Shown here piece after piece: positions 19,713-63,756 of a DNA stretch of 64,000 bases. Below the pieces are notes generated by a model. It saw nothing but the letters and a program-made list of their open reading frames with translations. It ran no database searches and was not told the DNA's origin. How positions within the stretch are numbered: the stretch's first letter is position 1; every line of letters begins with the position of its first letter. The translations under genes were made by a program, and so were the position numbers. Source of the DNA: Gautieria morchelliformis (lineage: Eukaryota > Basidiomycota > Agaricomycetes > Gomphales > Gomphaceae). Where the stretch lies: the NCBI GenBank assembly GCA_015179125.1, contig WHVA01000012.1, positions 186,001-250,000 on the forward strand, read 5' to 3'.

Positions 19713-20125
19713 TGTAAGGGCAACACTGGCTAGTTGTGGAGATCACACTACCACACAACTGACTGACAAGGGGAAATCCAAAGTATGTATAAATGAACGA
19801 AGTATACAAGAGAGGGGATTCTCACCTGACAAGGGGAAATCCAAAGAGAAAAGTCTAAGGACCCCCAATGTCAGCGAGCCCGTATTATACTACGCTGCGC
19901 AGCCAGGGACAACACTTGGCACCCGCCATCAACCCTGCATCCTCCTGACCTGCCTGACCCTTGATCGACCCTTGATGCCACCTATTACGCGAGCCGCTTG
20001 ATTTCCGACACTGTTCCGAGAGTGGAAGTCGGAAATTGGATCGGAACTGGAAGCGGAGTCGGAAATGGAGTCGGAAATGGATGTGGTGTCGGAACTGGGA
20101 ATGGAAAACAGGGTGTCCCCTGACA
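19713..20125 (-). repeat. Gypsy B 3' LTR, 413 bp
   Basis: Plus strand TGTAAGGGCAACACTGG to GTGTCCCCTGACA. It has the same length as the LTR at 25406-25818 and differs from it at only about a dozen positions by eye. The outside bases GAAAT (19708-19712) match those after the other LTR (25819-25823). The next bases 20126-20138 are a polypurine tract on the minus strand (AGAGGGGGGTGA), confirming this as the 3' LTR. Confidence 0.93.
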
Positions 20126-22590
20126 TCACCCCCCTCTAGCGTGCTGCGTCCTCGAAGCACGGGACACGAGGGACTGAAATGCCAGTGAGCGGATTCGGCG
20201 AGGGGCACCAGGGTGTGTCCTATAGAACTGGTGGAGTTTGTCTGGAGCAGATACATCTTGCTCCGGGACCCACAAATTCTCCTCATACCCATACCCTTCC
20301 CATTTCACGAGGAATTGGAGTAGTCCTCGCACAAACCGGCTGTCCAGGATCCGTTCCACCACATAGTGCTCTTCTCCATCTACAATCTCCGGTGGAGGTG
20401 GCGGACGAGCCTTCCAACCTGGAATTGGGTCCTCAAACGTAGGGAGTAACTTCACCATGTTGAAGATGGGGTGGAGGCGGGACATGGACATCGGAAGTCG
20501 GAGGCGGTATGCATTCCGTCCAACCCTCCGCATCACTGTGAAGGGCCCAAGGTAGCCGTGGGCCAGCTTCTGCGAAGGGCTTGTGGTGCGGATGTCACTT
20601 GCATCTAGATACACCTTGTCTCCAACTTGGTACTCCGGGGCAGGAACCCGGCGTTGGTTGTAATACCTTGCCATGTCATCCTTGGCCTTCTCAAGGGCCG
20701 ACTTGGCTTCCGAAAGGGTGGTGTCCATGCGGTCTCGGAACTCATTGACCGTCTCCAGTCGAGACTCAGCCTGGCGTGGTTTGAAGCCCATCCGCGGGTG
20801 TCGTCTGGAGTCAAGCATGAAGGGAGTCTGTTGTGTGGCGGAATGTACATGGTTGTTATATTGGAATTCCGCCAGTGGAAGTAACTCATCCCAGTCATCC
20901 TGCCTCTCATTGACAAAGAGGCGGAGATATTGCTCCAACTCCTGATTGACCCGTTCCGTCTGTCCGTCACCCTGTGGATGGTATGCTGTGGTGGTAGCCA
21001 ACTTTATGCCAAGCAGGTGGTAGAGCTCTCGAGTCAGTTCCACGACAAACTGCGGACCTCGGTCGGAAACAACTTGCTTCGGGAGCCCATGCAACTTCCA
21101 GACATGTGCAAGGAACAGGCAGGCCGCTCCGAGGGCTGTGATCGTCGTGTGCGTCGGAACGAAGTGGGACACCTTGCTTACCGAGTCCACAACGTTCATG
21201 ATCGCGTCGTAGCAATGAGACTCTGGGAGTTCAACGATGAAGTCAACACTGATGGTGTCCCAGCAGGATTCGGGAATCTGGAGCGGAACAAGTTCTCCGA
21301 CGGGCGGATGTCGTTGCGCTTTGGTTCGGAGACAAAGGTCACATGTCTTCACGTACTGTCCAATGTAGCGGGACATCTGAGGCCACCAGTAATTCTGAGC
21401 CACTAACTCCAGCATCTTCCACCTGCCAGCATGCCCAGCGACCCGTGTGTCATGGTGCTGGGACACGATGCGGCGGCGGAGGTCCGCCCCACCTGGAACA
21501 TAGACCTTGCCTCTGAAGTGGAGCAGTCCATCACGTTCCGACCATTCCGCTGCCCATACAGACCATGAGTGCCCTTTCCGAAGTTCCTCCACCACCTTCA
21601 CCACCGACTCCTCCTTCTTTCCATTCTGGTACTGCCTCCGGATGTCTCGGAGCATTTCCGCTTCCACCCCAACTGCAGTCACTCCCTCTAGGGTGCGGAT
21701 TGCAAAGAGACTTGGGCGGAGCAGTGTCATATCCCCGTTGTCTCCACTTCCGCTTCCATGATCCGCACGGCGGGATAGGGCATCGGGCTTGCCCATGGTG
21801 CGGCCAGGGTGGTGGTGGAGCATGAAGTCGAACCGGGACAGGTGTAGGGACCACCGTGCTTGTCGTTGGTTCAACTTCTTAGATGTGCAGAAATACTCGA
21901 GGTTCTTGTGGTCTGTCCAGATCTCAAACGGGCATAGAGCACCCTCGAGGAAGTGTCGCCACTCCTCCAGCGCTCGGATGATTGCCAGCATCTCCTTGTC
22001 ATGGATCTCATAGTTCCGCTCGACCGGACTAAGGATTTTAGAGAAGAAGGCAATCGGATGCCATCCCCCACCATCTTCCGATGACTGTTGTGACAAGACC
22101 GCTCCGGTAGCTGCGTCAGAAGAATCCGCCTTGACTCGATAAGGGCGAGAGTCATCAGGAAAGATCAGGACCGGGGCAGAAGTGATCAGCTCTTTGAGTT
22201 TGTCAAAGGAGGCCTGTTCCAGCTCTCCCCACTGCCATCCAACCTCCTTCTTGGTGAGGTCGAAGAGGGCACAAGCATGGCAGGAGAAGTCCTTGATGAA
22301 CCGCCGGTAGAAATTGACAAACCCAATGAAGGACTGGACCTCTTTCTTGTTCCGTGGCACGGGCCAATCTGATACACTGGAAACTTTGACTGGGTCCATT
22401 TCCACATTTCCTTCCGACACAATCACCCCAAGATACTCTATCCGCGTCCGCTCAAATTTGCACTTTTCCGGCTTGAGACACAGGTTGTATTCCCGGAGCC
22501 GTTCCAGCACTCTCCGCACGACTTCCCGATGTTCCGACATTGTTTTTGTGAAGATGAGGATGTCATCGAGGTAGACGCAGACACCCCTCT
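20126..22590 (-). pseudogene. Gypsy B pol: RT C-terminal half, RNase H, integrase, chromodomain
   Basis: An 804-codon uninterrupted reading. It begins just after the RT active site and shows FIGFVNFYRRFIKDFS, the RNase H start RVKADSSDAATG with NYEIHDKEMLAI, the integrase zinc region HHDTRVAGHAGRWK and CDLCLRTKAQRH, the core with SVDFIVELPESHCYDAI, VVSDRGPQF and GDGQTERVNQELEQYL (D, D, E), then a GPFTV block and a chromodomain (FLVKWEGYGYEENLW). It ends a few codons before the polypurine tract, so there is no room for extra genes. It looks functional in itself but is separated from the RT N-terminal half by an extra T near 22590. Confidence 0.92.
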
Positions 22591-23281
22591 GCTATCATGT
22601 CACGGAAAATTTCATTCATCATCGTCTGGAATGTGGCGGGACTGTTGGTGAGGCCAAAGAACATGACCTGTGGCTCAAAGAGTCCTCGGTTGGTGTGGAA
22701 TGCGGCCTTCCACTCGTCCCCCTCCCGGATCCGAACATTATTGAAGCCCCAGCGGACATCCAGCTTAGTGAAGTACCTTGCCCCGCGGAGTTGTGTGATT
22801 AGTTCGGAAATGAGTGGAATGGGGTACCGGTTCTTGATCGTGATCGCATTCAAGGCCCGGTAATCCTGCACAAGTCTGAGCGAGCCGTCCTTCTTCTTGA
22901 TAAAGAACACCGGAGATGCCATGGGTGACTTGGAGGGGTGGATCCTCCCTGTACGGAGGTTTTCCACAAGGAATGCATCGAGCTCTACCTGCTCCTTGGG
23001 TGACAGCGGGTAGACTTTGCAGTTGGTGGGCTTTGACCCAGGCTCCAACTCGATGGCATGGTCCCACAGCTTCCGTGGAGGCAGGGCATCAAACGACTCC
23101 TTGGCAAAGACATCCTCGAACTCCCGCAAGTACTCCGCAATTTCCGCCTCCACCCTATCATGCTTCTGGCTTCAGCAAGGCGTTGTGAAATATTTCCGAC
23201 GGCGCGGATGTGTTCCGCTTCCGGTGGAAGGTTTACGTACAGCAAGCGCTCCCCTTCCGCCAGAGTGTCTTCCGGGCCGAG
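22563..23281 (-). pseudogene. Gypsy B RT N-terminal half
   Basis: Reads YLREFEDVFAKESFDALPP, then FFIKKKDGSLRLVQDYRALN and FTKLDVRWGFNNVRIREGDE and ending in FGLTNSPATFQTMM, all classic RT motifs. The reading frame is lost at about 22590 by one extra base just before VCVYLDD, and upstream near 23165 by a 4-base gap compared with gypsy H (just after the QRLAEA block). Between 23281 and 23165 the sequence stays in the protease frame after an in-frame TGA at 23282-23284. Confidence 0.85.
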
Positions 23282-24103
23282 TCAGATGACGTCGGAATCG
23301 GAATCGGAATTGGAATCGGAATTGGGAGTGGGAGCCGGTTCAAATTCCGCTTCCGAGTCTTCTTCCGCAAGCAGTGGATGGGGGCCAGAACGACATGTCT
23401 GTATGAGCCGTTCGGTCTTCCGCTGTTCCTGGTGCTCCTTCCGCACTTCCGACCGACACATGTGACACTTGGCTGGGCATCGACTCATCAGCACATTCCG
23501 AGTCTGCCAATTGATCTCCGGGTTGTGCTCCTGAAGCCAGGTAAAGCCGAGGATGATGTCTTGCTTCCCCAGACTGGTGACTGCAAAGGAAGTGCGTTCT
23601 GTGTGTCCATTGTAGCGGAGAATTCTGTCTACTATCTCCGTGATGGACCCTGACTCATTGGGGCTTCCATCCACATTGAACACTGGGATTGCACGCTGCA
23701 ACTTCTGCGTAGTCAGTCGGTTCCGTTCCACATAGTCCTGGTCCATAAACTGACCAGTGGCTCCGCAATCGACAAGGGCGGGTCCGTATTTGACTTCCAC
23801 CATATCTGTCGTCTGGATCTCCACCTTAATGACTAGTGACTTGGGGCCCGGAGTGGCAGCAACAACATAGCGCTTCGGGAGGCGTCTCTCCCAAGGGCGG
23901 ATGCGAGATAGATGGGGTGTCGGTTTTGGTTTTTGTGTGACTTTATCCGGTGGATCTGTACGAAGTGAGGAGAGTGGGGGCTTTTCATTCTCTACTTCAA
24001 GACAGGGAAACCGGTTATGTACAGGCAGCAGGGGCACACATCTCACCCGCTGTGTGTCACAAAATCGACGCATCTTCCACTTCCAATGCGCCATGTTCCA
24101 CAT
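23282..24103 (-). pseudogene. Gypsy B aspartic protease region
   Basis: Open for about 270 codons. It has PALVDCGATGQFMD (active site D-C-G-A), LPKRYVVAATPGPKS upstream, and IILGFTWLQEHNPEINW downstream, the usual order for a gypsy protease; a CX2C pair (KCHMC) follows and the end is a Ser/Asp repeat (DSNSDSDSD). It overlaps gag (24057-24103) in the +1 frame, so a frameshift would be needed to make Gag-Pol. The terminating TGA at 23282 is matched by a TGA at the same place in gypsy H. Confidence 0.85.
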
Positions 24104-25163
24104 TTTCGGAAATTCCTTCCGCAGTGGGCACTCCGCTTATGTCCGCGAGTGCGAGGAACTCTGGGAGGAGCTTGAGTTTCTCCTCTGTGGTCATAAGCCA
24201 GATGTCGAAGGCTTGGGGGCACTCGCGGGCATAGTGGCCTGGTTGTCGGCATCGGAAGCAGGTGATGGTTCCATGGCCTTTTCCACGCATGCGGTCAACA
24301 TCCATCGGGGCAGGGTCACTCTTAGAGGGAGGGGGGCTAGGGTTCCTAATAGGAGCAGGTGGAGTAACCGTCGGAAATATTTTCTGTGCGGGAATGAATG
24401 CACTTCCGGGTTTTGGCACAGGCAGAGGAGGACGAGCGGAACTGCGTGTCATGTTCCGGTTTGTCTCCATGAAGGCCTCATTTGCTTCCCTGTTTTGGGA
24501 CACCCTCTGTGCAGCTTGATACCACCCTTCCGGGTCATCGAAATCCGGAGCTCCATCCCCAAGCAGTGCGACTTGGTTCTGGAGCATTGGATCAAGCCCT
24601 CATCGGAATTTGATGACGATTGTCTTGTCGTCGTCGTATTCCGCAAGGTCGATGAGCTCCTGGAAGCGGTCGATGTAGTCATCGACTGGATCCTTGGCCT
24701 GGTACCAGCTGGTTCCCTCGAGATTCGTAAGGGCTGTGAGCTGCTCGTTTTTCGGACAGAACTGGTCGGAAAATGTTTTCTCGAAGGTGTCCCAGTCCCG
24801 GAAGTAGTTCCCCTTGCCCTTTGCTTCATGTCGGATCACCTTGTTTGCAAAACGGGCTGTGCGGTCCAACTTGAAAAAGGACAATGCCCAGTGAATCCAA
24901 GCCTGGTCGTTCAGAAAGAGGTCTCCGACAATTGCGAAGTAGATGCTGCATGTGTTGAAGAATGCGCGTCCCTTCTCCCGATCTCTGTCAAAGTCCGCCG
25001 GAGTTGCGGGTTTGACCTTTGCCAACTTCGCGGACACCTTCTCTTCTGCTAGTTCCGCTTTTCCAAAATCCGGCTCGTCCAGCATCGCATTTCCACCACC
25101 TTGGGGAATATCTAACTTAGCCAAAATTGTTTGCAAGGCTGTTTCAATCGCGTCGGTCTTCAT
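24057..25163 (-). pseudogene. Gypsy B gag with in-frame TGA
   Basis: One frame runs from MKTDAIETALQTILAKLD at 25163 to 24057, interrupted by a single TGA at 24600-24602. The capsid shows FFKLDRTARFANKVI, DWDTFEKTFSDQFCP and DDYIDRFQELIDLAEYDD; after the TGA come GLDPMLQNQVALLG and the zinc knuckle CFRCRQPGHYARECP (CX2CX4HX4C). The TGA replaces what is probably an Arg codon (CGA). Gypsy H has TGA at the same codon. A possible upstream start at 25416 lies in the LTR, so I favour 25163. Confidence 0.88.
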
Positions 25164-25405
25164 CCGGTTTTCGCATCAATTCCTCCTCCATATTCCGAAG
25201 ATGATCATCCGGATCCATGTCAGAAGGAGAAATATGGGACGGGATTTCCGGGGTTGGGAGCTTGACGTAAGAAGAGGGACTGTCGTATGCCGTGCGCGCG
25301 GAAGAGGTTGCGATCTCCGAGTCGCTGTCTCCGATTCCGAACGCACCTATGGCGAATGCAACATGCAATACGACCGCCGGTCCTCTAGGGAAGAGACTTT
25401 TCTGC
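25164..25405 (-). other. Gypsy B 5' leader
   Basis: The untranslated leader between the 5' LTR and gag. Its first bases on the minus strand (gcagaaaagtctcttccc) are shared with gypsy H at 44170, so the primer binding site is probably here, but I cannot assign the tRNA. An open frame across it would encode SDSEIATSSARTAYDSPSSY-like sequence that is also present in H, so gag may extend upstream of 25163. Confidence 0.5.
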
Positions 25406-25818
25406 TGTAAGGGCAACCCTGGCTATTGTGGAGATCACACTACCACACAACTGACTGACAAGGGGAAATTCCAAAGTATGTATAAATGAACGAAGTATAC
25501 AAGAGAGGGGATTCTCACCTGACAAGGGGAAATCCAAAGAGAAAAGTCTAAGGACCCCCAATGTCAGCGAGCCCGTATTATACTACGCTGCGCAGCCAGG
25601 GACAACACTTGGCACCCGCCATCAACCCTGCATGATCCTGACCTCCGTGACCCTTGATTGACCCTTGATGCCACCTATTATGTGAGCCTCTTGATTTCCG
25701 ACACTGTTCCGAGAGTGGAAGGTGGAAATTGGACCGGAACTGGAAGCGGAGTCGGAAATGGAGTCGGAAATGGATGTGGTGTCGGAACTGGGAATGGAAA
25801 ACAGGGTGTCCCCTGACA
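25406..25818 (-). repeat. Gypsy B 5' LTR, 413 bp
   Basis: Plus strand TGTAAGGGCAACCCTGG to GTGTCCCCTGACA, followed by GAAAT, the target duplication that also precedes the other LTR. It has the same length as the 3' LTR and very similar sequence, so gypsy B is among the youngest insertions. A tandem of gagtcggaaatg lies near its right end. Confidence 0.93.
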
Positions 25819-26256: not shown

Positions 26257-26760
26257 GTCTTCCGATACTTTCAAAATGTACATCCGCAAACACCCCGTCG
26301 TCTTCCACGTTCTTATACACCGTCCACCCGCGATTAATCCTTCCTACAATACGTCTCCAATCAATTTTCTTGTCTGCGGTGCCTCGCTCGGCACCGGCGC
26401 CACAAATAGAGCCGCCCCTCGGGCATACCGGAATTCGCCGCCATAGATTTTGGGATCGCGCTAATCTGCCGGTACATTTAAATTCAGGTACGCGTGCACT
26501 GGTATATCAGCGTAATCTAAGTACCCGGTCTTCCAGCCGCGGCAGCGTACGTAAACACACTCGATCCACCGCTGTATATATGCAAGCTACACACAAGGTG
26601 CGTTTGCGATCCATGCTCTGTCTGCCATTCATTCAGTCACAGTTCTCAATCAGAGTAATTACAATGAATGGTGCGAAGTGCAACAAGTTTCAAGAGCAAA
26701 CTTCCCAAGGCCTTAAAAGTCCCGAACCTCTAACGACACTGTAGGAAGAATAAGTGCTAT
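26257..26760 (+). repeat. Repeated non-LTR segment, copy 1
   Basis: From cggaattcgccgccatag (about 26429) to cctctaacga (about 26735) the sequence closely matches 34857-35147. Both copies contain TATA-like gtacattt/gcatataaattcaggta words and a short start MNGAKCNKFQEQTSQG (copy 1 near 26664). It may be the promoter and first codons of a gene shared by two lost elements. No domain is recognisable. Confidence 0.45.
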
Positions 26761-28557: not shown

Positions 28558-28881
28558 GTTATTCCGGAGATGCGGGGAGTTTTGACCGCTACTGGGGGAC
28601 CAGTAGCGGGATCCCTCCGCGGCAAGAGACAAAGATCCGGGGATGCAAACCATCCTCTCAGAAAAGCCCGACAGGTTTAGAACCACGTCTCCAGCCCCGC
28701 CGGGGGCCAAGCGCATCTGCGGGCGCACCCAGATATAATTCGCCTTCACAGACCGTTATCTCTGTTTTATTTTACTACCATACTTGGGCAGATACTATCC
28801 TGTAGTCTTAAGTGCACCATAAGCGCTCGCGCTTCGAGCACTATAATTGATAATCTCTCTCTCTCTCTCTCACAAACCGGT
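28558..28881. mobile_element. Unclassified ~320-bp insertion with (CT)n end
   Basis: In gypsy G the codons for DELMPTDRYMELR are contiguous; in gypsy F the same reading is broken between GEL (28557) and YVELR (28882). The insert ends with a CT microsatellite at 28852-28870. No clear terminal repeats or target duplication. It could be a SINE-like or solo LTR sequence. Confidence 0.4.
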
Positions 28882-30544
28882 ATGTCGAGTTGCGAACAGC
28901 GGTGACAAGACGCTCTAAACGCCTCGCAGAGAAGACAGAGGCGAGAGTAGCGGAAGGTGCCGCATTAAACGAGGGCTCACCAGAGCCCGCGAACGTCAGA
29001 GCCATCGCCGCAGGAAATGACAGCACACCCCTGCGCCGGGTCATCGAGCAAGGCATCGACCTGTCTAAGGTCCTACGAGATGCGTACCACAGGGACACCA
29101 TGTTCACAAAGATCATGGTGCACCCGGACGCGCACCCGAGGTTCGGGATCTGGGATGGGCTGATCTGGACTAAGAATCAGCTCAAAAGAGACGTCATTGC
29201 CGTCCCCCGCTCTTTTCTTCAAGGGGGAAGGAAGCTGATCGAAATTATCATCGATTGGGCACATCAGATAGTCGGCCACTATGGCCATCTGAAGACTTTG
29301 AACTACGTTCAAAGAGCATATTGGTGGCCGGGCATGAGCCCAGACATAGAAGCGTTCTGCACATCGTGCGTGAGGTGTCAGATGACGAAAACCGGGCCAC
29401 AACGGCCCAAAAGCCTACTACACAGCCTACCCATTCCAGATAGGCTGTGGCAGTCGATTGGCATCGACTTCATGGGGCCCCTGCCCAAATCCAATGACTG
29501 TGACTACCTGATGGTAGTCATCGCCGACTAACATCGCTCGTACACCTCGTACCAACCACGACGAGCGTGTCAGCCAAGGGAGTAGCCTGGCTGTTTCTGA
29601 AGGAGGTCATCCGACTCCACGGAGTTCCCGACTCCATCGTCTCGGACAGAGACTTGAAGTTCACGTTGATCTTCTGGCGTGAACTACAGCGACTCATGGG
29701 GACCAAGCTCCTCATGTCGACTGCCTTCCATCCCCAAACGGATGGAGCAACCGAGCGGGCAAACCGCTCGATCGGCCAGATATTGCGCACGGTCGTCAGA
29801 GATGATCAGAAGGATTGGGCATTGAAATGCCCAATGGTTGAGGTCGCCCTCAACAGCAACATCAGTGCGACCACAGGGTTCGCACCTTTCGAGCTGAACC
29901 ACGGCTATATGCCGCGGATAGACCTCCCCATAGCCGTGGACACCCCATTCAAGGGGGTAGCCCGGTTCGCACGTCAGGCAAAATGGAACCTGATGGCGGC
30001 ACACGATGCAATCATAGAGCATCGAGTGACGCAAATGTTTCACGCAAATAAGAAATGTATGGCAAGCGACAGGTACACGGCCAACGACCGCATTCACCTT
30101 TCGACACATAACCTAACTCTCCCAAAAGGAAGAGTCAGAAAACTAGTCCTGTGGTACATTGGACCGTACCGCGTCGTCAAGGCTCACAACGACGCCTCGA
30201 CAGTGACCCTCGATCTTCCCGACGAACTGAAAAGCCGTCACATTTCACCGGTCTTCCATTCCAGCCTCGTACGGCGATACGAGGCTAACAACGATGAATT
30301 GTTCCCTCGTCGTGAGGCCAAGTCATTTTATGACTTCGGAGCAAATGACGACGAGGAGTGGCTCGTCGACGGGATTATCGCACATCGATGGATAAACTCG
30401 ACAGACCTGGAGTTCCAGGTCTGTTGGACCCTAGGCGACGTGACATGGGAACCCATGTCGTCCTGCAAGGACCTTGAAGCCCTAGATAGCTATCTAGAGC
30501 TTCGGGGGGTGGGCAAGCCACGCGACCTCCCCAGACGCCGCTAG
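28882..30544 (+). pseudogene. Gypsy F integrase with chromodomain, one frameshift
   Basis: Zinc region HQIVGHYGHLKT and CTSCVRCQMTK; catalytic core GIDFMGPLPKSNDCDYLMVV, IVSDRDLKFT and TDGATERANRSIGQ (D, D, E); a basic C-terminal region and HISPVFHSSLVRRYE; chromodomain end WLVDGIIAHRWINS with FQVCWTLGDVTWEP. A stop at 29529-29531 is caused by a lost base or two, because the +1 reading continues LTSLVHLVPTTTSVSAKG without a break. The rest is open to 30544. Very close to gypsy G at 50446-52016. Confidence 0.9.
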
Positions 30545-30662
30545 ACGCATCTGTCACGTGCAGACCATGTGACGCGCCGGCCACAGCGCGGTTAAATTTT
30601 CACCTCAGATCTTTCCGAGGGCGCATCGCTTCTTGGAAGCTAACCACCATCATCCCCACAAG
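30545..30662 (+). promoter_or_regulatory. Conserved promoter-like block before gypsy F accessory gene
   Basis: Contains CACGTG (30555-30560) and a half site catgtgacg, a ttaaatttt box (30592-30600), then an imperfect hairpin cctcaga/tccgagg (30604-30621) and gggcgcatcgcttcttggaa before the ATG at 30663. Gypsy G has the same parts in the same order at 50325-50445. E-boxes, TATA-type box and leader together suggest a separate promoter for the downstream gene. Confidence 0.55.
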
Positions 30663-32442
30663 ATGATGCCCCCTAAAGATGGGATGGACGTTGATCCGTC
30701 AATGTCCACAACGTGAACAACAGCCCCGAGACAGGGGGCCGCAGACATGCTCCGTGCTCCAATAGACCAGGAGCACTGGATGATCGTGGGATGGGAGGAC
30801 GCCCTTGCCATCATCCACCCGGACGATTGCGCAACGTGCACGGACTACGCCACACACCTAAGGGCCGCGACAGGCACCCGCAAGGTCAAATTGCAGGACG
30901 AAGACATCGGCGATGCCGTCTATGCAGCCTGGGAATGGCTCCCAAGGGGCATCGCGTGTGACGCGCGAGAAGAGCCCCTCCAGGACATCCATGACCTTAA
31001 AAAAGAGGTCAAGGAGCTGGAACGCGCGCTCACAACCGAGCGCGCCAGGATCAAGGAGCTGGAGCAACAGCTGAGCGCAGCCCAGCTCCAGGTTACCCTG
31101 GCCCACGTTGCCTCAAAAAGGCCGCGACATGACCCGGCCACGGACCCAGTGGCCGGGCCATCATCACTTCGAGCGACGGTACCTCTGCCGGCGCGCGCAA
31201 CATTGGGACTGGCGTCCCGATTGTCGGCGCCAACCCCGACAACGACAACGAGGGAAGGGCATAGTGCGCCTTCCGACTCTGCGTATGGCGTCCCAGATGG
31301 ATGGGAGTCAGACTCATCCGTCTGGAAGACGTACGACCCCAAACGGGCACAGAGACTGGCAGAGCAGCCAAAGAAAAAGCGCAAGAAATTGTGTGGCTCC
31401 CCCCACACCGTCAATGGGCTAGCCATTGCGAAGGAAAGCGCGATTAGCGCTCACCTAGCAGCGTCATCGTCGCACACTGTCAATGACCCCGCCCTTCAGC
31501 GGCGGGTAGCACAGATCGAGGCCCAGTCCATCGGGCCTGGCGTGGCCCTGCCTCCGCCGGCGGGGACAGTTCACCCTCCCTACCTGGGGGAGGGGACACT
31601 CATCCCACTTGGAGATCCACCGATCTCTGAGACGGGCCTCCTACCATGGCCAGTAGGAAAGGCCCAACAGCGCCGTACTCAATGGTACGACGTCTGCCCG
31701 CTCGACGACCCACGCTTTGTCGAACTCATAGCGCGGGCAAAAGAAACGCCGCAGCTCGCGTGTATGCGCGAGATGATCAGCGTATTCAAACGCATCGAGC
31801 GCGAACAACGCGCTCGCAATCCCAAAAGGGATTGTCTCGTGATAGTGGGCGGTACCCCGCACGACATCGCGGCCATCCTGAAGGGTTGGATACACAACCC
31901 TGAGGGAATCCCATCCGCCATCCGTGACAACGCGGATGGCACCTTCAACCTAGATGACATGGACATCTGGATGTGGTTGAAGGCCCTTGTGCCCCGGGTC
32001 AAAGGGGTCGCACCACCTCTCAGGGCGAGGCTACTCGACCTATTCGGCTCGACAGACCAATGGTCGAGCCTCATCAACGCCAGGGAAGTGCTGACGCCTC
32101 AGAGCACCACCCTGCAGCTCTCAATCACGGGCCCATTCCCTGTGGAGGGCCGCGGTGCCACGACCCCTCACTCACGCTCAGCTTGACCAAGAGCTGGCGC
32201 GCTTCCGGCTCCCTCCTCAGACTGAGGGCCCAGCCGTGGAGGCCATGCTCTGCGAGGACACTGGCCCCATCACCCAAGCGGACACCGCCGCTGGTGGTGA
32301 GGCTCACCAGCCTCACCCAATCACCACTGATGACGCGGAGGTGCCCCCGGAGGAGTCACGTGCTCCACCGGCCCTGTACGACGACGACGTCATCGTATCG
32401 GCCACTCTAGAGGACTCCCTCATGGATGACCTCTATGAGTAG
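30663..32442 (+). pseudogene. Gypsy F accessory gene downstream of pol, function unknown
   Basis: Frame opens at ATG 30663, meets TGA at codon 18 (30714-30716) and continues open from MLRAPIDQEHWMIVGWEDAL (30747) to 32186. Features: a W-x-D-A-L-x-IIH-P-D-D motif with CATC; an acidic and Lys-rich coiled coil from about 30985 (HDLKKEVKELERALTTERAR) of some 12 heptads; a Pro/Ser-rich linker with VAGPSS; a conserved C-terminal domain with VALPPPAG, GDPPIS, WYDVCPLDDPRF, IVGGTPHDIAAIL and DMDIWMWLKAL. The last part (to 32442, ending MDDLYE) is in another frame, and a segment found in gypsy G is missing at the switch. I know no family; it is shared only with gypsy G here. Confidence 0.65.
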
Positions 32443-32466: not shown

Positions 32467-32692
32467 AGAGGGGAGGGTGTAAATAACCCGTGTATCTACA
32501 TGTACAATAGTTATTACATAATCCCAGTGGGCCCCTTAGGGACCCACTGTATAGTTCATGCGTGGGAACTGGCCAGCAGTTCCCATCGCATCTTACTCTT
32601 ACCTGTCACTACGTAGCATTCAGAATACCACTCATTGGTCAAGTTCTGCAGTGCCCTTGTGATACAAGGTCCTAAGATCGACATCCTTTACA
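32467..32692 (+). repeat. Gypsy F 3' LTR with polypurine tract
   Basis: The tract AGAGGGGAGGG is at 32467-32477. The LTR (32478-32692, 215 bp) starts TGTAAATAACCCG and ends CATCCTTTACA. It shares blocks with gypsy G LTR, including the hairpin cagtggg/cccactg near 32526-32550 followed by tatagttc. No left LTR of gypsy F is in place. Confidence 0.75.
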
Positions 32693-34575
32693 ACCTAGCT
32701 TCATTACCCGTCGTTTGACTGTAGTGGCACCTGGAATGTGCAGCGGAGTTGCACCGTGATGTGCATACTCAAGCATCGCTTTAAATTCTGGCTTTTCAAC
32801 CTCATCGAACAGTTGGTCACATGCAACCTGCCATTCAACCAAAAGCCTTTCAAACGTTCCTTGATCCCAAGGAACCTATCACCGGGTCAGTGGGAATTAG
32901 CCAAATGAGTGATCAACTGACCGCATTTTTTGCAGCCTGACGTGAGAACGCAGCTGCTAATGGTCCCTGTTGCATGTCTATTTCTGCACTGTTTTAGATT
33001 CAAGTGGCACCTTGTTGCGGCAATCTGTAGCTCCTCAAGAGTAGCACGTTGATCAGGACGGCTCTTGATGGTCTCCATGAGCTGGTGCATTTCAGGGAAG
33101 TGAGTTCGCAGATGGTTAATAAGACCTGAGTTACGAAGGGGCAGGGTTTCAGTGATCAGCTATGAGCTCATCACTCTAGTGCTTTCAAACAGCAGTATCC
33201 TTACCGTTCTGAGAACCTTTCATTTTCTTGGTCACCGTTAGGATCTTCCTCCGTCCATGATAGCATCGGTAATGTTTGTCGCCTTGTTGCCCGAGCTCGC
33301 CAATGCTATTCTTGTCAACAACCTCATAGAATGAGTAGATCGCGGGTCGTACTAGACCCGTCACTGTGGCCTGCATGTATGAAGTCATTATATAGTTCAA
33401 CTGCGCTGACCACCGTGCCAGATGTATACCTTGGGATCCAACTCAGTGCCATTCTGGCATGCATCGTCATCAAGGTCCATGTGAACTATACCTGTCCCTT
33501 GTTTCTCCGTTGATGTCCCATCCTCATTAGTCACATTCCCCCCGAGACGGTCACTGCAGTCTACGAGTCGCTTCTTTGCCTGGTGTGTCTGCTTTGGCTG
33601 TCTTTTGCGTTTCGTTTCTTCAGATTGGATAGCGGCACCTCGTGGAGCACTCCGCATCCCACCTCTATTAGTCGTCTCCGGAATAGTCTTTCATGGAAGA
33701 ATATCTGCAAGCTAATGACCCAATCAGGTAACGAGCATATGAGCGAGTCATACACATACTTCAGCATTTGGGACAAAATCCTTGGGTTCATTCTGGTCAT
33801 CTGAGTTTGTTTCGTCGTCACTGGTCTCATCTGCGTAGGCTGAATGACTCCTGGGCGAGTCAGGATTGGAATCCGATGCTTCAAACGCATCCTTATTCAA
33901 AGGAGCACCAGGACCCTCACAGACTGCCTGGTCCGACACTCGTGGTGGCTTCTGTGCGCTTGCCTTTGCTTTCACATTCGCATTCGCATCAGCGGCCTGT
34001 TCACGAAGGCGTATCAGCCGGCTTGGTTGATGAGTCCGGCGTGTTCTCCCCTGCGCAACAGTGACACTGTTTCCATCTCAAAGCTACATATCAGCCCCAG
34101 CGAGTTAGAAGCAGTGAATCTACATACCATCAATGTCCATCTCATCCCCCTTCACACCAGCAGCGGTGGCAGCCCTGCACAATGCCTCGATCCAAAGTCT
34201 CACCAGACCGACAGCCGCCTTGTCGGATTGTTTACCTATTTCCTCCAAGCACCACCGGATCAGGGCGACCGTTTTCGCGAGTCCTGTCCCGCGCTCAGTG
34301 AGTATAATGCCACTGGATTTCTCACCAAAGGCGGCATGCATCGCTTTGTTGAAGGCCGGCCACACACCCTCGTCCTGCAAAAACATGAAGTCAATGGTTG
34401 GTGGCAGTTTGGAGTTGGATGGCGTCTCTGGAAGAGTTGGAGGGAGGCGTTCGAAGAGGTGTACCATTTTGGCGCACTCATCCTGGACGAACGATGGCAT
34501 GGTGGGAAGGACCTCGGCGAGGGACGTTAGAACGGTGAACCCGATATGTATAGCATAGACTAGACCACATACCAT
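32693..34575 (-). pseudogene. BED zinc-finger hAT-transposase-like gene, N-terminal part
   Basis: Minus-strand exons can be followed from 34575: an N-terminal block with DECAKMVHLFERLPPTLPE and IILTERGTGLAKTVALIRWC, a GTATGT donor near 34127, then a basic/acidic segment with RTRRTHQPSRLIRLREQAAD and an acidic run (DETSDDETNSDDQNEP). A later block reads AIYSFYEVVDKNSIGE, HYRCYHGRRKILTVTKKMKG and, across a gap, NHLRTHFPEMHQLMETIKSR, which fits a BED-type finger of Agaricomycete hAT transposases. Stops and gaps break it, and no DDE or dimerisation domain is seen before 32693. Assignment to hAT rests on the finger only. Confidence 0.45.
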
Positions 34576-34856: not shown

Positions 34857-35312
34857 TCGGAATTCGCCGCCATAGATTTTGGGGTCACGCCAATCGACCG
34901 GTGCATATAAATTCAGGTACGCGAGCACTGGTATATCGGCGTAATCTAAGTGCCCGGTCTTCCTGCAGTGTCTAAAGACACCGTACCTGGTAAATTTACA
35001 AGTGACCACACTCGATCCGCGCCATACATATGCAAGCTACACGCGAGCGCAGTTCTCAGTCAGAGTAATTACAATGAATGGTGCGAAGTGACAAATTTCA
35101 AGAGCAAACTTCCCAAGGCCGTAAAAGTCCCAAACCTCTAACGAGTCAACTGCTAACCAAGACCGGCCAGCTATCCAAGGAGACCAAGGAACACGTCATT
35201 CCTACTCGGACAAGCTTTTTAGGCGTGTACAGTAATATAGTAACTTATCTGGCGTGTGATGTCTGCCCTCGACTAACAGAGGATATCTACAAGGGATCAC
35301 CCGCGCTTCCGT
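34857..35312 (+). repeat. Repeated non-LTR segment, copy 2
   Basis: 34857-35147 matches 26429-26735. The short reading MNGAKxxKFQEQTSQG also occurs here, out of frame by a small deletion (near 35075), and continues openly as SQLLTKTGQLSKETKEHV to a stop at 35312. It may be a gene start common to both loci. Function unknown. Confidence 0.45.
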
Positions 35313-46771: not shown

Positions 46772-49700
46772 ATAGAGAACGCTAGTCTCCATAGATGTCG
46801 TCATCGAGGTCTTTGTCCTCAGCTGAGGGAGCGTCGTCCATGGGGATGTCCTCGTATGGAGCCAGCAGGGGCCGGGGGTCCACGTGCATCGTATCCACAT
46901 GAGCGGATGTGGATGGGTGGGGTCCGGCTCGGGGTTGATACGGACCCCTTTCAAGGGATGGATTGATTCCCATCTCCTGGATGAAGGTGGCCTCTGTGGC
47001 CAGATCAGGTTGCGGATCTGGGGGGCAGGACGCGAGAAGCTCCTTGTTGAGCTGTTCCAAAGTGCTTGTGGGCGCACTGGGACAACTTCAGTCCCTGTTT
47101 ATGCCGCTGCTGCCCCGTGCGTGCAGCGGTATTCGTGACTTCCTTGTCTTGAAGTCGCTGGAAGTATCCCTCGATCCAAGGGATACGTTCATGGTTTATG
47201 CCGGCATGAAGGGCTAGCCATGACGCGAGCTCCTTCAGCGGGATCTCGTGTGCGAGTCTGCTCCGGAGCGGGAACGTCCCGGTGATCGAGGCCCACAGGG
47301 TGTCTGTGGCGGGCGATGGGATCGTGATGTTGGTCACGAGGTCACACCACTGGCCTGGCGTACCAAACGAGTCGCTTAAACACAACTTGAGAGGGGATTG
47401 TGGCTTGCCCTTGGGGGCCAGGATCCATACCCACATCCAGATATCGATATCTACATCATCGTGGATGGTGGGAGGGACTCCTTCGGCGTTGGGCCGCCAC
47501 GTGTTAAGCACCGTGATGATATCGTCAGGTGTACCATCCAAAATGTTTATATAGTTTGGATGGGGTTTACGGTGGCCCTCCTCGCGGAGGCGCCAGAATG
47601 CCGTGTTCATTTCCAGCATCCGCTGGTCGACCGGAGTGTCCCTGGCGAGCGCAAGGAGGTCTAAAAACCTCTGCTTGCTGATCGGGCAGATGTGGTACCA
47701 CTCGGGGACCAATCTGCCTAGGGGCTGCGGCAAGCGGCCCATCACGGAGATTGGTGGATCTCCGTGTCTCAACGGCTCCCCTTCCCCCGGGTAGTGTTGC
47801 ACAACTCCCGATCCAGGCGGCGGTAGCACAACGTGAGGCCCAAAGTACTGGGCCTGCACTGTGGCTAGTTGTCAATATTGGATTTTTGGGCGTTAATATC
47901 GCATGTTAGTGGCGAATGCCCGAATAGCATGTGCGATCTAGCGAATCGCCCAGCGAACAGTACCGAAGAGGTAAGGGTTAAGAAGTAAGAGGGTTACTCG
48001 AAAGGAATTCACCCTGATCTACAGTCATAGCGAAATAGCCCGTGGCACTTGACGATGTAATGTGCAAGGTGTCACGGAAAGGTTGTCTAAGTAGCGACAA
48101 TCCTTTCGCTGGCAAAGGCACTCCTTCGGAGCCCTTCGCTGACAGCACAGAAAATAACTCGAAGGCTAAGGTAACAAAGATGAATTATGAGAACTCACCA
48201 GTGATGCCTAAGTCCTCTTCTGGTCGAAGATAGAAATCTACAGGAGAAGGCTCAAGACGATGGTCACAGCGAGGTCAAGTTTGCACAAGATGGACGTATG
48301 ATAATTAAACTGGAGAATATACATGCGAATATAGACTACTTATACCGAATGCTCATATGGTGGTAGCGAATAGGAAAGAGGCCGTCTGGAGTCAGGGTTG
48401 GATAGGGGTGTGCGGTCAGGATACATAATAGATGAAATAGACATACAATAGAATGGAAGAGGGGTGCGAACATGAAACGACAAAGAGGAAAGAGGGCGAA
48501 GGCCCCTATGTATGAAAACACGCCTTGGGACCTGCATATACACCACCCTGCATGGACTCTTCGTCTGCTGGGTTGATCCCACATGACCTATGGGTAGGAT
48601 GCCCCGCGAATGCATTCTGGCCATAGGAACACCCAAAGGGGGTTGAGTTGAGAAGATGATGGGACCAGTGATGAACCATCAATCCGGGTAAAGGATGTTG
48701 ATCATGTTTGATGGCGTGCCTGCTGGCGAATGATACGAGTAGCGAATGGTCATATGGCGAATGTGGCGAATAGCGAATGGAGCGAAGCGAGCAAACATGG
48801 AAGAGTGGTGAAAGGGAACACAGGGATAGCTGGGTACAAGAAATAAACAAGTCATGACAGCCTGCACCTCCTTGCAATTCATGATAGGACCAGTGATGAA
48901 CCATCAATCCAGGTAAAGGATGTCGATCATGTTTGATGGCATGGCTACTGGCGAATGATGCGAGTAGCAAGTGGTCCTTTGGCAAATGTGGCGAATAGTG
49001 AATGGAGCAAGGATTGAATGGAGCCAAGCCGAGTGAACATGGAAGAGTGGTGGTGAAAGGGAAAACAGGGATAGCTGGGTACAAGAAATGAATGAGTCAT
49101 GACAACTGTATAGTGAAAACTTCAGCAAAGCTAATTCGTCCTGCCCTACAGTGGTACGAGTCCCATTGAGTCCAACCTGCATGGAGGCTGCAACTGACAC
49201 TATCCGAATGCATCCTGAGCATGTGGGTCTGTCATGGAGTGGGAGTTTAACAGATGATGGGTTCTATGATGGATGAGGGCCCCAACACCTGGCGTCCTGG
49301 CAGGAATGATGCGAATAGTGAATGTGAAAGCAGTATGGTGACAAATATTTTGGCAAGATATTCGCTGGTTCGGGAAGCCGTTCGCTGGTTCAGGAGGTCA
49401 TTTGCTGTGTGCTGTGAAATGATTCGCAGAATAAATGAATCATGACACTAGTGCCTGTTGTAGCCGGGGGTCGTCGATGCCGTGCACCAATGACTCTGCT
49501 AGATACGTGTTCTAGTTCATCTGCCAGTCCATTTTCCATGACTGGCGGTGGGAGATACTTTCTGTGTTTCCGTTTGGAAATGCGTTCAGGCTGATCTGGA
49601 TCATAATTGACCCAGATTGACATGTCGTACTGCCACCCGTCCGGAATGTTGGCGTCGTACGACTCAAACGGCACCGTTGCAGTTGACAGTGTGGTGACTG

Positions 49701-50324
49701 TCGCTGTCCTGGACACTGCTCGGGCATCCGCAACACACTCGGCTCCGTGATGCGGTTGGCCAGCGCCGGACCTGTTGAGAGGGGCACGGCCCCTGGGGCT
49801 AGTGTTGCCCCTCTTTCGCGCGATGGCAATGGAGCCATCGGGTGGGAGGATGGACCGGCCACAGGCTGAGCCTTTGGCTGCGGCAGGGCAGGGCGCGTCC
49901 GCCTGGCTCCTTTGAGTTGTTGTTTCAACTCATGGATTTTATCGTCCTGGAATGAGACTCGCTCACGCTCGGAAATCAGCTCCCGCTTGAGGCGCTCAAT
50001 TTCTGCTTGAGCATCCTCGACTGCCATCCGCCTGGCCCCTTTGGTGATCCAGGCCCAGGTGTCCTCAATGGCGTAGGTGATGTCATCGTCTAGCATCCAA
50101 ATCTTACTGGAGTTTGATGACTCCACTAGGTGAGTTGCGCATGACTCGCAACATTTGCATTTATCTGAGTGGATAATGGTGAGGCTGTCGTTCCACGATG
50201 CTATCTCCCAGTTTTCGGGAGCTAGCTTTTTCGAAAAGCTTGTGGTGGCCCCCTTCTTTGGGGCCGCTGGTCATGGCGTGGACATTGATGGCTCAAGGTC
50301 CAGGACTTCTTTGATGCCATCCAT
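46772..50324 (-). pseudogene. Gypsy G accessory gene downstream of pol, split by an LTR
   Basis: Starts at 50324 (MDGIKEVLDLEPSMSTP), meets TGA at codon 18 (50271-50273) and continues with PENWEIASWNDSLTIIH, CKCCESCATHL, then a coiled coil (EIERLKRELISERERVSFQD) and a VAGPSSHP linker. A 1.6-kb A-family LTR (47870-49447) splits it. The C-terminal domain follows at 47005-47859: YFGPHVVLPPPGSGVV, GDPPISVMG, WYHICPISKQRFLDLL, ILDGTPDDIITVL and DVDIDIWMWVWIL. The last part (46782-47060, ending DDDIYGD) is in another frame. The order of motifs equals gypsy F, so this is a real conserved gene, now broken in this copy. Confidence 0.65.
47870..49447 (+). repeat. Expanded solo LTR of the gypsy A family, 1578 bp
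   Basis: Starts TGTCAATATTGG and ends AATCATGACA, with the exact 5-bp duplication CTAGT (47865-47869, 49448-49452). The first ~990 bp match the canonical LTR and reach a TCATGACA at about 48860. Beyond that the terminal part is repeated: the block accagtgatgaaccatcaat occurs at about 48663 and 48891, and another TCATGACA lies near 49103. So the 3' end was tandemly duplicated before or after insertion. Confidence 0.8.
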
Positions 50325-50445: not shown

Positions 50446-52016
50446 CTAATGCTGTTTAGGCAGGTTGCCCAGTTTGGCCACGCCTTGAAGCTCTAGATAG
50501 GTATCTAGGGCCGCGAGGTCCCACGATGACATGGGCTCCCATGTCACGTCTCCTAGAGTCCATCTGACTTGGAACTCTAGGTCCTTCGAGTTTGTCCATC
50601 GATGGGATAAGATCTCGTCGATGAGCCACTCTTCCTTGTTGTTCGCTCCAAAGTCATAAAATGACTTTGCTTCCCAACGAGGGAACAGATCATTGTTGTT
50701 CACCTCATACCTTCATATGAGGCTGGTATGAAACGTCAGCGTGATGCACCAGTTCGTCAATTCCTCCGGTAACTTGAGGGTTACCGTTGAGGTGTCATTG
50801 TGGGCTTCTTTCACGCGATATGGTCCTATATATCGTGGTATTAGCTTCCTGGCCCTCCCTTTCGGTAGGGTCAGGTTTTGGTCGACAGGTATACACGGTC
50901 TCCCACCGCATACATGTCCCCTTCGTGACGTTTCTTGTTAGCTTGAAACGTCTGCGTCACGCGATGCTCTATGATGGCATCGTGGGCTGCCATCAGGTTC
51001 CATCAAGCCTGATGTGCAAATTTCGTCACTCCCTTAAAGGGAGTGTCCGTGGCCATTGGTAGGTCGATCCGCGGCATATATCTGTGGTTCAGCTCGAAGG
51101 GCGCAAACCCTGTCGTCGAGCTGACGTTGCTGTTTAAAGCAACTTCGACCATCGGGCACTTGCTGGCCCAGTCCTTCTGGTCATCTTTGATGACTGATCG
51201 AAGGACCTGGCCTATTGAACGGTTTGCCCGTTCGGTCACGCCATCTGTTTGAGGATGGAACACGGCGGACATGAGGAGTTTTGTCCCCATGAGTCGTTGG
51301 AGCTCATGCCAGAATATGGACGTGAACTTCGAGTCTCGATCCGAGACTATGGAGTCCGGGAATCCATGAAGTCTTACGACCTCCTTCAGGAATAGCCAGG
51401 CTATTCCTTTAGCTGTCACACTCGTCGTTGTTGGGACGAGGTGTACCTGAGACGTGAATCTATCTTTGATTACCATGAGGTAATCACAGTCATTCGACTT
51501 GGGCAATGGGCCCATGAAGTCGATCCCGATAGATTGCCATGGTCTCTTGGGTATGGGCAGGCTATGTAGTAGCCCTGCAGGCCGCTGCATGCCTGTCTTG
51601 GTAGTCTGACACTTCGCGCATGAAGTGCAGAATGCCTCGATGTCCAAGGCCATACTGGGCCACCAGTATGTTCTTCGAATGTAATTTGAAGTTTTCAGTT
51701 GACCGTAATGGCCAATTGTCTGGTGGGCATGAACGATTATGATCTCGATCAGCCTCCTTCCCCCTTGAAATATGTTCCAAGGGATGGCTATAACATCCCT
51801 CTTGAGCTGATTCTTCGTCCAAATTAGCCCATTCTGGATGCCAAATCTTGGATGCGCATCTGGGTTCTCCATGATCTTCGCGAACATGGGCTCCTCATGG
51901 TAGGAGTTGTGTAGGACCTGTGGCAGGTCCATGTTCTCTTCCACACTTATGCGTAGGGAGGTTCCATCATTGCCTGCCGCGATGACGCGGATGTTGTTGT
52001 CATCGTTGTCTGGCAA
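50446..52016 (-). pseudogene. Gypsy G integrase with chromodomain
   Basis: Open from 52016 to 51003: zinc region HQTIGHYGQLKT and CTSCAKCQTTK; core GIDFMGPLPKSNDCDYLMVI, IVSDRDSKFT and TDGVTERANRSIGQ (D, D, E). Between 51002 and 50704 the reading is degraded. The chromodomain end is open at 50446-50703 (WLIDEILSHRWTNSKD, FQVRWTLGDVTWEP). Closely similar to gypsy F. Confidence 0.9.
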
Positions 52017-53022
52017 TGACGTGGCGAGGCGCCTTAGCGGAGCTTTCGTTCATAACTGCAGCCTCTATTGTTCGCGGTTCAGTTTTCTCTGCGATGTGAG
52101 TCGATCACCTTGTAGCTGCTGTACGCAACTCCATGTATCGGTCGGTGGGCATTAGCTCATCATCCAGGTCTAGTTGCACATCTGCGTTGACAAAGACGTG
52201 GTCCAGGTGCTTCTCGTCACCGGTATCGCTCTCATAGTAGTGCGATAAGCAGTCCACTACTTTGTTTTCAACACCGTCGACGTGCGGTGTTGTAATTGAA
52301 GCGGGATAGGAACTCCCACCACCGGACCTGTCTATCAGGCAGGTTCTTTTGTCGAGACCCTTGTGGTCCGTGACTGGGGTGAACTTTTGCCCTAGGAGTT
52401 TGTCCTCCCACTTCATGAGGGCTTCGAGCATGGCAATAGTTTCGTGCTCATGTGTTCTATAGTGTTGCTGCGCCACACTGAAATTCTTTGACAAGAAGCC
52501 AGCTGGCCGACAGGGTCTCCAGTCTGGTCCCTGGCCGCAGACGGCACTGACACCAGACTTTGAACCGTCGGTGATGACCCATATCAGGTCCGCGTTCCGT
52601 GTGTCAATGGGGCGCAGGATTGGGGCCTTGCAGGGCAGCGCCCTTATGCTGTGGAAGCATTTGTCCAACAACGGCATCCATTCAAATGGACGGTTGTTGC
52701 ACACACATCCTGATAAGGGCGTGGTGTATGCACTGATGTCTGGCATGTGGTGTGCCAGGTATTGGACGAGGCCGAGGAATCTCTGCACGTCGGTAAATGT
52801 GCGAGGCCTCCTCCACTTGCGGATGCATTGCATTTTGTCTCCATCCGCATGAACCCCTTGGCCATCTATGATATGGCCAAGGCACTCCATTCTTTCTGAA
52901 TAGAGGTCAACCTTCTTTTTACTTAAGAAGAGATGGCTGCTCCGTAGTCTGTCGAAGACTATGTGGAGATGTTCCTCATGCTCTTGTATCGAGTGCGAGA
53001 AAATGAAAATATCATCCATGTA
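52017..53022 (-). pseudogene. Gypsy G RT C-terminal part and RNase H
   Basis: From the active-site codons (MDDIFIFSH) through HEEHLHIVFDRLRSSHLFLS, FLGLVQYLAHHMPDISAYT, the RNase H start LIWVITDGSKSGVSAV and HEHETIAMLEALMKWEDKLL to HVFVNADVQLDLDDEL. Open for about 300 codons; a TGA follows AATR (52103-52105). The Tyr-Met-Asp-Asp motif is split by the mariner-like element at 53023, so the RT is dead. Confidence 0.9.
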
Positions 53023-53991
53023 CAGTTGCGGACACTCAAAGCCTGCCTATTTGGCAGCAGGTGGAGAAAGATTTTGGCCCAAAACTGAGCTCAGAATCGA
53101 ACTCGCAACCCTAAAAAGCCTCAAAAAACAGCCTTACCTTAATTTTCCCATGGGTTTTAGGTACTGGCCAAATTTTTGGGCCAAACTTTGACTCTATATA
53201 GGTTCTGAGCACTATTAATACATTGATTTACCCTTCGCCTGTGCTTCGAGTGCCTTCATTGCACTCTCCAGTGACACTGATCTATGACTTTTCTGCCTGC
53301 ACACAACCCATGCTGCAGCCTCCCCTTTCAAGCCTTTTTGGTAAGCATCTATGAATCTCCATGACCAATTAATAAATCTCCAAATGAGATCTGCAGGGCA
53401 AGAACTTCCGGTGTGCATGCTTTAGCCTCTGAAAAGTTGCATCCTCCAGCTCCTCCCCATCACCTTGGCAAGTCTCTTTATGTGCAAAGTTCGTTTTCAG
53501 AGAATCAAATTGAATTAAATGAACCAGATCCTCATCATCCTCCTCTAGGACATCCTATCAGGGCTTGGTGCTTGATATCAGGGTGGAATGGGCTGAGGGG
53601 TTGACTCAAAGAATCAATGGGGTGTTGGGATTGATTTTTGAGGCCAGAGGTGTTGTCGGTCAACCTCTGGCCATGGGTGCAAGGTGAGACTTTGGAATTT
53701 TTTTCCGCAGTCCCAGTTGTATTTACCGACCTTGTTTCAACATGCGCGAGCACAGTACATCAAATGCTATTGAATCATGTTTTCTTCGTCATTTATGGTG
53801 CTAAAAAGGGGGTACAGCCAAAATTTTGGGTGGTTAAAACTTATTTTGTCAATTTTTGATAATTGGCTCATGCAAATATTCTCATAATGATCTAGACTAT
53901 TGTATATGAGTGTTTAGAAACAGTCTGGGCCATTGTGGCTGTCCTAAAAAATCGTCAACCAAAATAGGCAGGCTTTGAGTATCCGCAACTG
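53023..53991. mobile_element. Tc1/mariner-like element in gypsy G RT, 969 bp
   Basis: Ends CAGTTGCGGACACTCAAAGC and its inverse with one change, over more than 30 bp of near-perfect inversion, flanked by TA on both sides (53021-53022, 53992-53993). It inserted in the Tyr codon of the RT YMDD motif. No transposase is readable. The interior at 53215-53418 (minus) encodes FIDAYQKGLKGEAAAWVV, a short reading reminiscent of other fungal repeats but unassigned. Confidence 0.85.
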
Positions 53992-59164: not shown

Positions 59165-60520
59165 ATTGCGCTCGTTTCCGCCACCGCTTTCCGCGTATTG
59201 CAACGGCAAGAGGATACGACCGTTTATCAGCTTCACCTTTCCGATTCAGCTTCAGTCAAGGCTCGTTCCGCCTCGACTTCCGCTCCGGTCGACATGAGCT
59301 CAGTTCCGGAAGAATATTGTGACTTCCCGGACGTGTTCAATAAGGCCAAAGCCGACAAACCTGCTGAACATCGACCTTATGATTTGAAGATAGATTTGGA
59401 AGAAGGAGCATCTCCGCCCCTTGGACCGATCTACTCCCTTTCGCAAAGTGAACTCCAGACTCTCCGCAAGTTCGTCGATGAACATCTCAACATGGGCTTC
59501 ATCCGCCCTTCGCTGTCTCCGCACGGCGCTCCGGTCCTTTTCATCAAGAAGAAGGATGGATCTCTCCGCCTCTGCGTCGATTTCCGCGGACTCAATGCCC
59601 TCACTAAAAAGGACAAATATCCGCTTCCACGTATTTCCGACCTACTCGACACTCCCCGCAGGGCGAAGATCTACACCAAAATCGACCTCCAGCACGCTTA
59701 TCACCTTGTCCGCATCCGGGAAGGTGACGAGTGGAAAACCACCTTCCGCACCCGCTACGGTGCTTTTGAGTGGGTTGTCATGCCTTTTGGTCTAACCAAT
59801 GCTCCCGCCGCTTTTCAGCGATTCATGAACGACGTATTTTCCGACATCCTCGACGTATGCATTCTAGTCTACATTGACAACATCCTCATCTATTCTGACA
59901 CACCGGAAAGACATGGGAACATGTCCACGAAGTACTCCGCCGTCTACGCAAACATCATCTCTACGCAAAAGCAGAGAAATGCGAATGGCATCGCGACACG
60001 GTCGAATACCTCAGCTACATCCTCTCTCCAACAGGTCTTACCATGGCAGAGGACAAAGTCAAGGCAATTCAAGAATGGCCGGAACCCCGATGTGTTAAGG
60101 ATGTGCAGTCCTTCCTTGGCTTCGCCAACTTTTACCGGTGTTTCATTTATAATTTTTCTGACATTACTGTTCCGCTCACGCGTCTCACCAGGAAGGGTCC
60201 CCATGGAATTTTACTCCGGAATGCCGTCCGCATTTGAAGCCCTCAAATCGGCCTTCACTACGGCTCCCATACTCGGTTTCTGGATTCCTGATGCCCAACT
60301 TGTACTCGAAACCGACGCTTCCGACTACGTGCTAGCCGCCATTCTTTCCATCATTTCCCCTGATGACGGAGAAATTCATCTGATCGCATTTCATTCCCGC
60401 ACCTTTTCCGCCCTGGAACTCAACTACGACGTCCACGATAAGAACTACTTGCGATTTTCGAAGCCTTCAAAATTTGGAGACACTACCTCGAAGGTCCAAC
60501 CTATCCGATCGATGTTGTAA
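59165..60520 (+). pseudogene. Gypsy K reverse transcriptase and RNase H start
   Basis: Motifs in order: FIKKKDGSLRLCVDFRGLNA, YTKIDLQHAYHLVRIREGDE, MPFGLTNAPAAFQRFMNDVF and VYIDNILIYS, where the second catalytic Asp is Asn (GAC to AAC). A frameshift near 59915 moves the reading to VKDVQSFLGFANFYRCFI and a second near 60200 to FEALKSAFTTAPILGFW and LVLETDASDYVLAA (RNase H). The element is therefore dead for reverse transcription. Confidence 0.9.
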
Positions 60521-63647: not shown

Positions 63648-63756
63648 GGTGGATCAAAATGAAGACGTGTCTTGTTTCCCGCCTATCTTTCGAACTCCGA
63701 CGCATTTGTTCACAGGTCACGTGATTCCGACTTGTGGTCTTGCGGGGCTCGACCTT

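Follow-up and report, generated by a model that had tools for sequence, protein, structure and literature searches.

The window analysed here is a stretch of 64,000 nucleotides, positions 186001-250000 of contig C138 in a 122-Mb genome. It contains the remnant of a Ty3/gypsy element, denoted F, in which a sense gene, denoted ORF3, lies between the integrase and the 3' LTR. This placement, and the start of the gene at an ATG at 30663, agree with the initial annotation of the locus; the tail ends at 32442 and is followed by a polypurine tract and an LTR. The features of F are as follows.

28854-30544, plus strand: pol remnant of an element that lacks its 5' portion
28854-29531, plus strand: integrase H2C2 zinc domain (Pfam PF17921, 7.1e-17)
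29504-30544, plus strand: integrase core and Tf2-1-like SH3 domain (Pfam PF24626, 2.5e-8)
30350-30541, plus strand: divergent chromodomain-like integrase tail
30663-32442, plus strand: ORF3, F copy (broken), sense gene from integrase to 3' LTR; homologues open from start to end have 653-660 codons
30714-30716, plus strand: in-frame TGA in ORF3 (codon 18)
32467-32477, plus strand: polypurine tract, AGAGGGGAGGG
32478-32692, plus strand: 3' LTR, TGTAAA...TTTACA, 215 bp; the identical LTR type is found at both ends of the LTR-bounded copies on contigs C494 and C420

The integrase frame of F stops at 30544 and is followed by a 118-base spacer and by ATG ATG from 30663, where ORF3 starts in a frame that differs from that of the integrase. 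The part of ORF3 that is open in F spans 30717-32186 (489 codons), with the tail in another frame (32095-32442); about 182 bp present in other copies are deleted near 32145-32152. F is also truncated at the 5' side: homology to other copies begins near 28499, and only the 3' LTR is present in the window. At the opposite end, homology to the other copies stops at 32692-32696 in 36 of 40 loci, several of these places being held by more than one locus. Because homology among copies runs on to the end of the LTR, ORF3 is located inside the element. A gag frame at 24600-25175 was rejected as part of F, being inside the neighbouring element E. The direct repeats at 26429 and 34858 were likewise rejected as the LTRs of F, whose own LTR is at 32478-32692; this repeat pair (26429-26736 and 34858-35144, about 8.4 kb apart) brackets the remnant, which may be nested in another element.

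The integrase of F had been described as a chromodomain integrase. The tail is only a weak chromodomain match: in isolation it matched PF00385 with E=0.0024 and 18.2 bits, below the cut-off of 25.1, and in the whole integrase ORF with E=0.12. In another copy, L042, the whole ORF gave no chromodomain match with E of 0.1 or lower, and the isolated tail reached 0.0073. A PDB sequence search with the F tail produced four matches, cpSRP43 and chromobox 3, with E of 0.23-0.91.

Two further gypsy elements, E and H, share the window with F, which provides a natural comparison of the contents of one site.

19713-25818, minus strand: element E, gypsy with both LTRs, target-site duplication GAAAT, gag-pol only
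57869-62281 and beyond: element H, gypsy, with a clear chromodomain; integrase stop at 62281
62477-63653, minus strand: antisense frame of H, in pieces, within the approximately 1.5 kb from integrase to 3' LTR

Element E, with LTRs of 413 bp (96.6% identical), encodes RT, RNase H and integrase with a clear chromodomain (Pfam), and its pol is 28-39% identical to that of F. The integrase stop of E abuts the LTR, so that there is no ORF at the site of ORF3. The antisense frame of H combines a charged, helix-like stretch with a Cys-rich stretch that resembles the fungal Zn(2)-Cys(6) cluster below cut-off (PF00172, E=0.03), and a tandem array of 15-base units (58001-58330) is present inside the gag-protease frame of the same element. 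KDZ transposase domains, which are typical of basidiomycetes, yielded 91 matches in this genome and none in any of 14 control genomes, which is compatible with the basidiomycete origin supposed in the initial annotation.

The window contains a second copy of ORF3, in element G on the minus strand.

51003-53046, minus strand: G pol pieces (RT/RNase H 52105-53046, integrase 51003-52049), 73-83% amino acid identity to the F-type pol pieces
49512-50270, minus strand: ORF3, G copy, N-terminal domain and coiled coil
47005-47871, minus strand: ORF3, G copy, C-terminal domain
46782-47087, minus strand: ORF3, G copy, acidic tail, in another frame

G shares the ORF3 architecture of F, including all the motifs named in the initial annotation, which had described two gypsy copies carrying the gene. 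Both indeed contain it, but both are broken. In G, ORF3 is frameshifted and split by about 1.5 kb (roughly 47872-49425, delimited by eye from the frames), within which a 128-base stretch is duplicated. A search with the G-type query gave 136 rows. By our count, the G-type rows number 48, at 61-100% identity, with two contigs contributing two rows that may represent a single copy; the other 88 have 41-46% identity, the level at which F-type copies match.

All the ORF3 copies compared come from the same genome as the window. A protein search of this genome detected at least 89 ORF3 matches, that is, all of the 89 that were scored among 2160 first-look candidates. By our own count of the 89 listed matches, with the window copy among them, the matched part is free of stops in 54; this part excludes the first codons of ORF3 and everything behind the deletion in F. 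Among 32 fetched F-type copies other than that in the window, five are uninterrupted between the common start and the common end and have 653-660 codons, so that the 560-590 codons originally estimated are too few. In four more, the frame runs open to its end only once codon 18 has been passed (642-644 codons), and the remaining 23 fail both tests of openness. Among the 31 copies readable at codon 18, nine, including F, have TGA, 16 have CGA, four CGG and two CAG. With five of 32 copies fully open and this TGA in 9 of 31, most copies are either dead or tolerant of a shorter start. Codons 18, 102, 504 and 568 are stops in 9, 5, 5 and 4 of 33 copies, respectively. These shared stops suggest recurrent C-to-T change, through methylated CpG or a RIP-like process, given that the commonest alternative at codon 18 is CGA.

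LTR-bounded relatives, from which the gene could have been missing, contain it. Two such copies were delineated.

C420:68686-79148: LTRs identical at 207/214 positions; target-site duplication TAACA
C494, about 79106-89849: LTRs identical at 212/213 positions; target-site duplication AGGAA

Both have the TG...CA pair and the 5-bp target duplication of Ty3/gypsy LTRs. In C494, the open ORF3 frame has 660 codons; in C420, it has 643, behind the TGA at codon 18. In Pfam searches, which bore out the Ty3/gypsy order of gag-CCHC and then RT-RNase H-integrase, gag with a CCHC knuckle was found in frame in C494 and RT-RNase H-H2C2 in frame in C420, that is, in two different copies; the integrase of C494 is interrupted by about 1.5 kb. 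In a sample selected by integrase (eight of 40 listed matches, none already among the ORF3 loci, with the next 300 bases compared), all eight copies continue into the spacer and the first approximately 60 codons of ORF3. C494 also has a 437-aa frame rich in charged residues (L044:423-1733), situated after the 5' LTR and ahead of the Retrotrans_gag frame, for which Pfam gave no match with E of 0.1 or lower. An 831-aa open frame adjoining the C494 copy (L040:7407-9899, minus strand) resembles, on visual inspection, a helicase of Helitron or PIF1-like type.

To assess selection, the copies ranked by the searches as most similar to F, with the window copy included, were compared codon by codon; in each column, the most frequent codon served to polarise the changes, and the counts leave out columns in which under 15 rows were readable as well as codons carrying more than one change. 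Across 33 F-type copies, variants present in at least four copies comprise 96 nonsynonymous, 155 synonymous and 4 stop changes, 0.22 of the expected ratio, and variants confined to a single copy comprise 268, 138 and 7, respectively, a ratio of 0.68 (Fisher's test for shared versus single variants, 5e-12). With transitions weighted, the ratios are 0.27 and 0.84. The ratio for shared variants is thus 0.22-0.27, as opposed to a value near 1. The corresponding ratio for the integrase, in 30 rows, is 0.17 (0.23 weighted). When the same shared variants were read in other frames, both remaining sense frames and two antisense frames gave 1.3-2.2; the third antisense frame gave 0.36, which we attribute to the coincidence of its third positions with those of the sense frame.

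The ORF3 proteins of F and G are 40-41% identical, with dN of about 0.57 and dS of about 1.6, compared with 73-83% identity, dN of 0.11-0.17 and dS of 1.5-2.2 for the pol pieces, the ratio between F and G being rough because dS is near saturation. Divergence of ORF3 and divergence of integrase are correlated across 24 copies (r 0.39; none of 2000 permutations as high). As the sequences show, ORF3 is under purifying selection, is common to two lineages and moves with the element. The earlier suggestion that the shared motifs imply selection is thus borne out, by an in-frame ratio far below 1 and by the two diverged lineages. ORF3 is constrained and yet changes several times faster than pol, three to five times at the protein level.

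The following parts can be distinguished in the ORF3 product, with positions given for the F copy.

30816-30857, plus strand: H-x3-C-x2-C-x5-H motif, putatively zinc-binding
30969-31115, plus strand: long helix or coiled coil (AF2 helix 75-123; block pLDDT 83-94 over residues 81-120)
31368-31388, plus strand: basic patch PKKKRKK, NLS-like; an equivalent patch is found at the same place in G-type frames
31611-32152, plus strand: C-terminal domain with GDPPIS, WYxxCP, GTPxDI and DIWMW, truncated in F by the deletion
32145-32442, plus strand: acidic tail, out of frame in F, with the approximately 182-bp deletion at its left edge

The H, C, C and H of the first motif are kept in 33, 32, 33 and 33 of the 33 F-type rows, and the motif is present in 13 of 20 G-type loci, with seven lacking a visible one. 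Six of the seven positions of PKKKRKK are kept in 31-33 of 33 rows, and the R in 27 of 33. The basic patch and the HCCH motif are short, and such motifs can occur without an import or zinc function. F and G have in common a VAGPSS linker and a W-x-SD-x-S-[IV]-W-x-x-Y motif, followed by the basic patch, and their C-terminal domains are 42% identical over 272 codons. In the open copy L040, the last 100 amino acids include 6 K/R and 22 D/E; the acidic tail ends in LxDDxY, which is conserved in F and G.

Searches of Pfam, PHROGs, NCBIfam and PDB sequences with ORF3 produced nothing above a curated cut-off or with a convincing E-value, in accord with the failure of the initial annotation to recognise the family; the weak matches fall mostly over the coiled coil. 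A viral_contigs scan detected no relative. Two AF2 models of sequences from the window have mean pLDDT of 42 and 36 and are confident in the coil only. By hydropathy, examined in one open copy (L040), there is no transmembrane or signal peptide-like stretch: the highest 19-residue value is 1.0, the N-terminal 11-residue maximum is 0.43, and the pI is 5.5. A splice acceptor ahead of ORF3 was considered and dropped: F has an acceptor-like AG at 30607-30608, which is kept in 4 of 28 other aligned copies and replaced by GG in 24, and no conserved acceptor was found in this alignment.

From the comparison of copies, we conclude that a high-copy Ty3/gypsy element has a genuine third gene in ORF3, an additional ORF in sense orientation located between pol and the 3' LTR. 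Its product could well be a nuclear accessory protein, a reading that we favour tentatively and rate at slightly under even probability. Such a protein would oligomerise via the coiled coil and would have a basic import signal, a small HCCH zinc-binding domain at the N-terminus, a domain for partner binding at the C-terminus and an acidic tail. Within the cycle, it would be active in the nuclear phase, aiding entry of the integrase-cDNA complex or its targeting to chromatin; alternatively, it might shield the element's chromatin from silencing. The proposed nuclear location, zinc binding, oligomerisation and roles in integration or anti-silencing derive from the motifs and from the analogy with nuclear additional ORFs of plants, which are antisense. 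The rapid change of ORF3 under constraint is in keeping with a protein whose host partner itself changes. Against a nuclear or DNA-binding role, there is no fold or family in its support, and the predicted models are poor.

Alternatively, ORF3 might encode a structural protein that joins Gag in the virus-like particle, itself Gag-like or a scaffold and made separately, in which the coiled coil and a helical C-terminal domain would assemble and the basic patch would bind RNA. The helical predictions (of low confidence outside the coil), the placement of ORF3 as a separate frame and its fast evolution relative to pol, which would also suit a Gag-like protein, are compatible with this possibility. 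We nevertheless regard it as unlikely, because the element already has a Gag bearing Retrotrans_gag and a CCHC knuckle, and hhalign comparison of the ORF3 profile with the gag alignment gave a probability of 0.1%, albeit with shallow alignments of 11 and 3 rows. Somewhat less probable still is the capture of a host gene, with ORF3 either a passenger or recruited and the original gene remaining in the host. Such an origin would be in line with the lack of Pfam matches above cut-off to retroelement families or any others; but the presence of ORF3 in both F and G and the selection on it argue against a recent passenger, and there is no host homologue among the 89 scored of 2160 candidates, a set saturated by element copies.

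That ORF3 is an envelope-like or export protein, the latter among the roles initially proposed, is very improbable: the site from pol to the 3' LTR is the env position, and sense additional ORFs of plants are often called env-like in the account of PMC7264820, but the open copy examined has no signal peptide-like stretch and none of transmembrane strength, on which ground an envelope gene was rejected, the low hydropathy maximum and the pI point the same way, and the good acceptor AG of F is not conserved. Finally, the frame might be open by composition only, with no protein made, given the GC-rich sequence and a 208-aa antisense frame that is also open inside ORF3 in four of four 10-kb copies listed; this explanation is close to negligible and was rejected for the family as a whole by the frame controls (0.27 in the sense frame versus 1.3-2.2 in two sense and two antisense frames), so that the in-frame constraint, along with the presence of ORF3 in LTR-bounded copies, indicates that the frame is not a chance one.

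Retroelements are usually pictured as gag and pol, to which ORF3 adds a third gene under selection. Being selected, fast-changing and without a family match in our searches, it is a candidate host-interaction factor, and the many open and broken copies in this genome make its role approachable through the parts that stay intact. A more far-reaching proposal, to which we assign a low probability, is that ORF3 represents a new family of nuclear counter-defence or targeting proteins of fungal gypsy elements, engaged in an arms race with host silencing and responsible for the large copy number.

Additional ORFs at this site are of a known kind; for the ORF3 family and its non-envelope make-up, we found no description in the literature searched. 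Plant LTR retrotransposons also have additional ORFs between pol and the 3' LTR; those in sense orientation are denoted aORF-3S and are often called env-like (PMC7264820). ORF3 resembles them in place, strand and the lack of an assigned function and, in most of the family copies examined, is likewise a same-strand ORF between the pol stop and the 3' LTR. It differs in having no transmembrane stretch and no conserved splice acceptor and in belonging to a fungal element; the two are set apart by their descriptions. A nuclear product, shown or proposed, of an accessory gene between pol and the 3' LTR is described for gene23 of maize Grande, which is nuclear, and TRP28 of Retand, which is proposed to bind DNA (PMC11963269, PMC7264820). 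Both are on the opposite strand, unlike ORF3, and the likeness is one of description only. LTR retrotransposons of bdelloid rotifers have family-specific ORF3s that include the non-envelope types GDSL, DEDDy and CC, according to PMC5408684; the gene described here has no GDSL, exonuclease or membrane domain above the Pfam cut-off, but is, like them, an extra ORF3 beyond gag and pol. In fungi, PMC2864245 mentions unspecified 'add. ORF's in gypsy elements, and these and ORF3, likened by description only, are alike unidentified extra ORFs of fungal gypsy elements.
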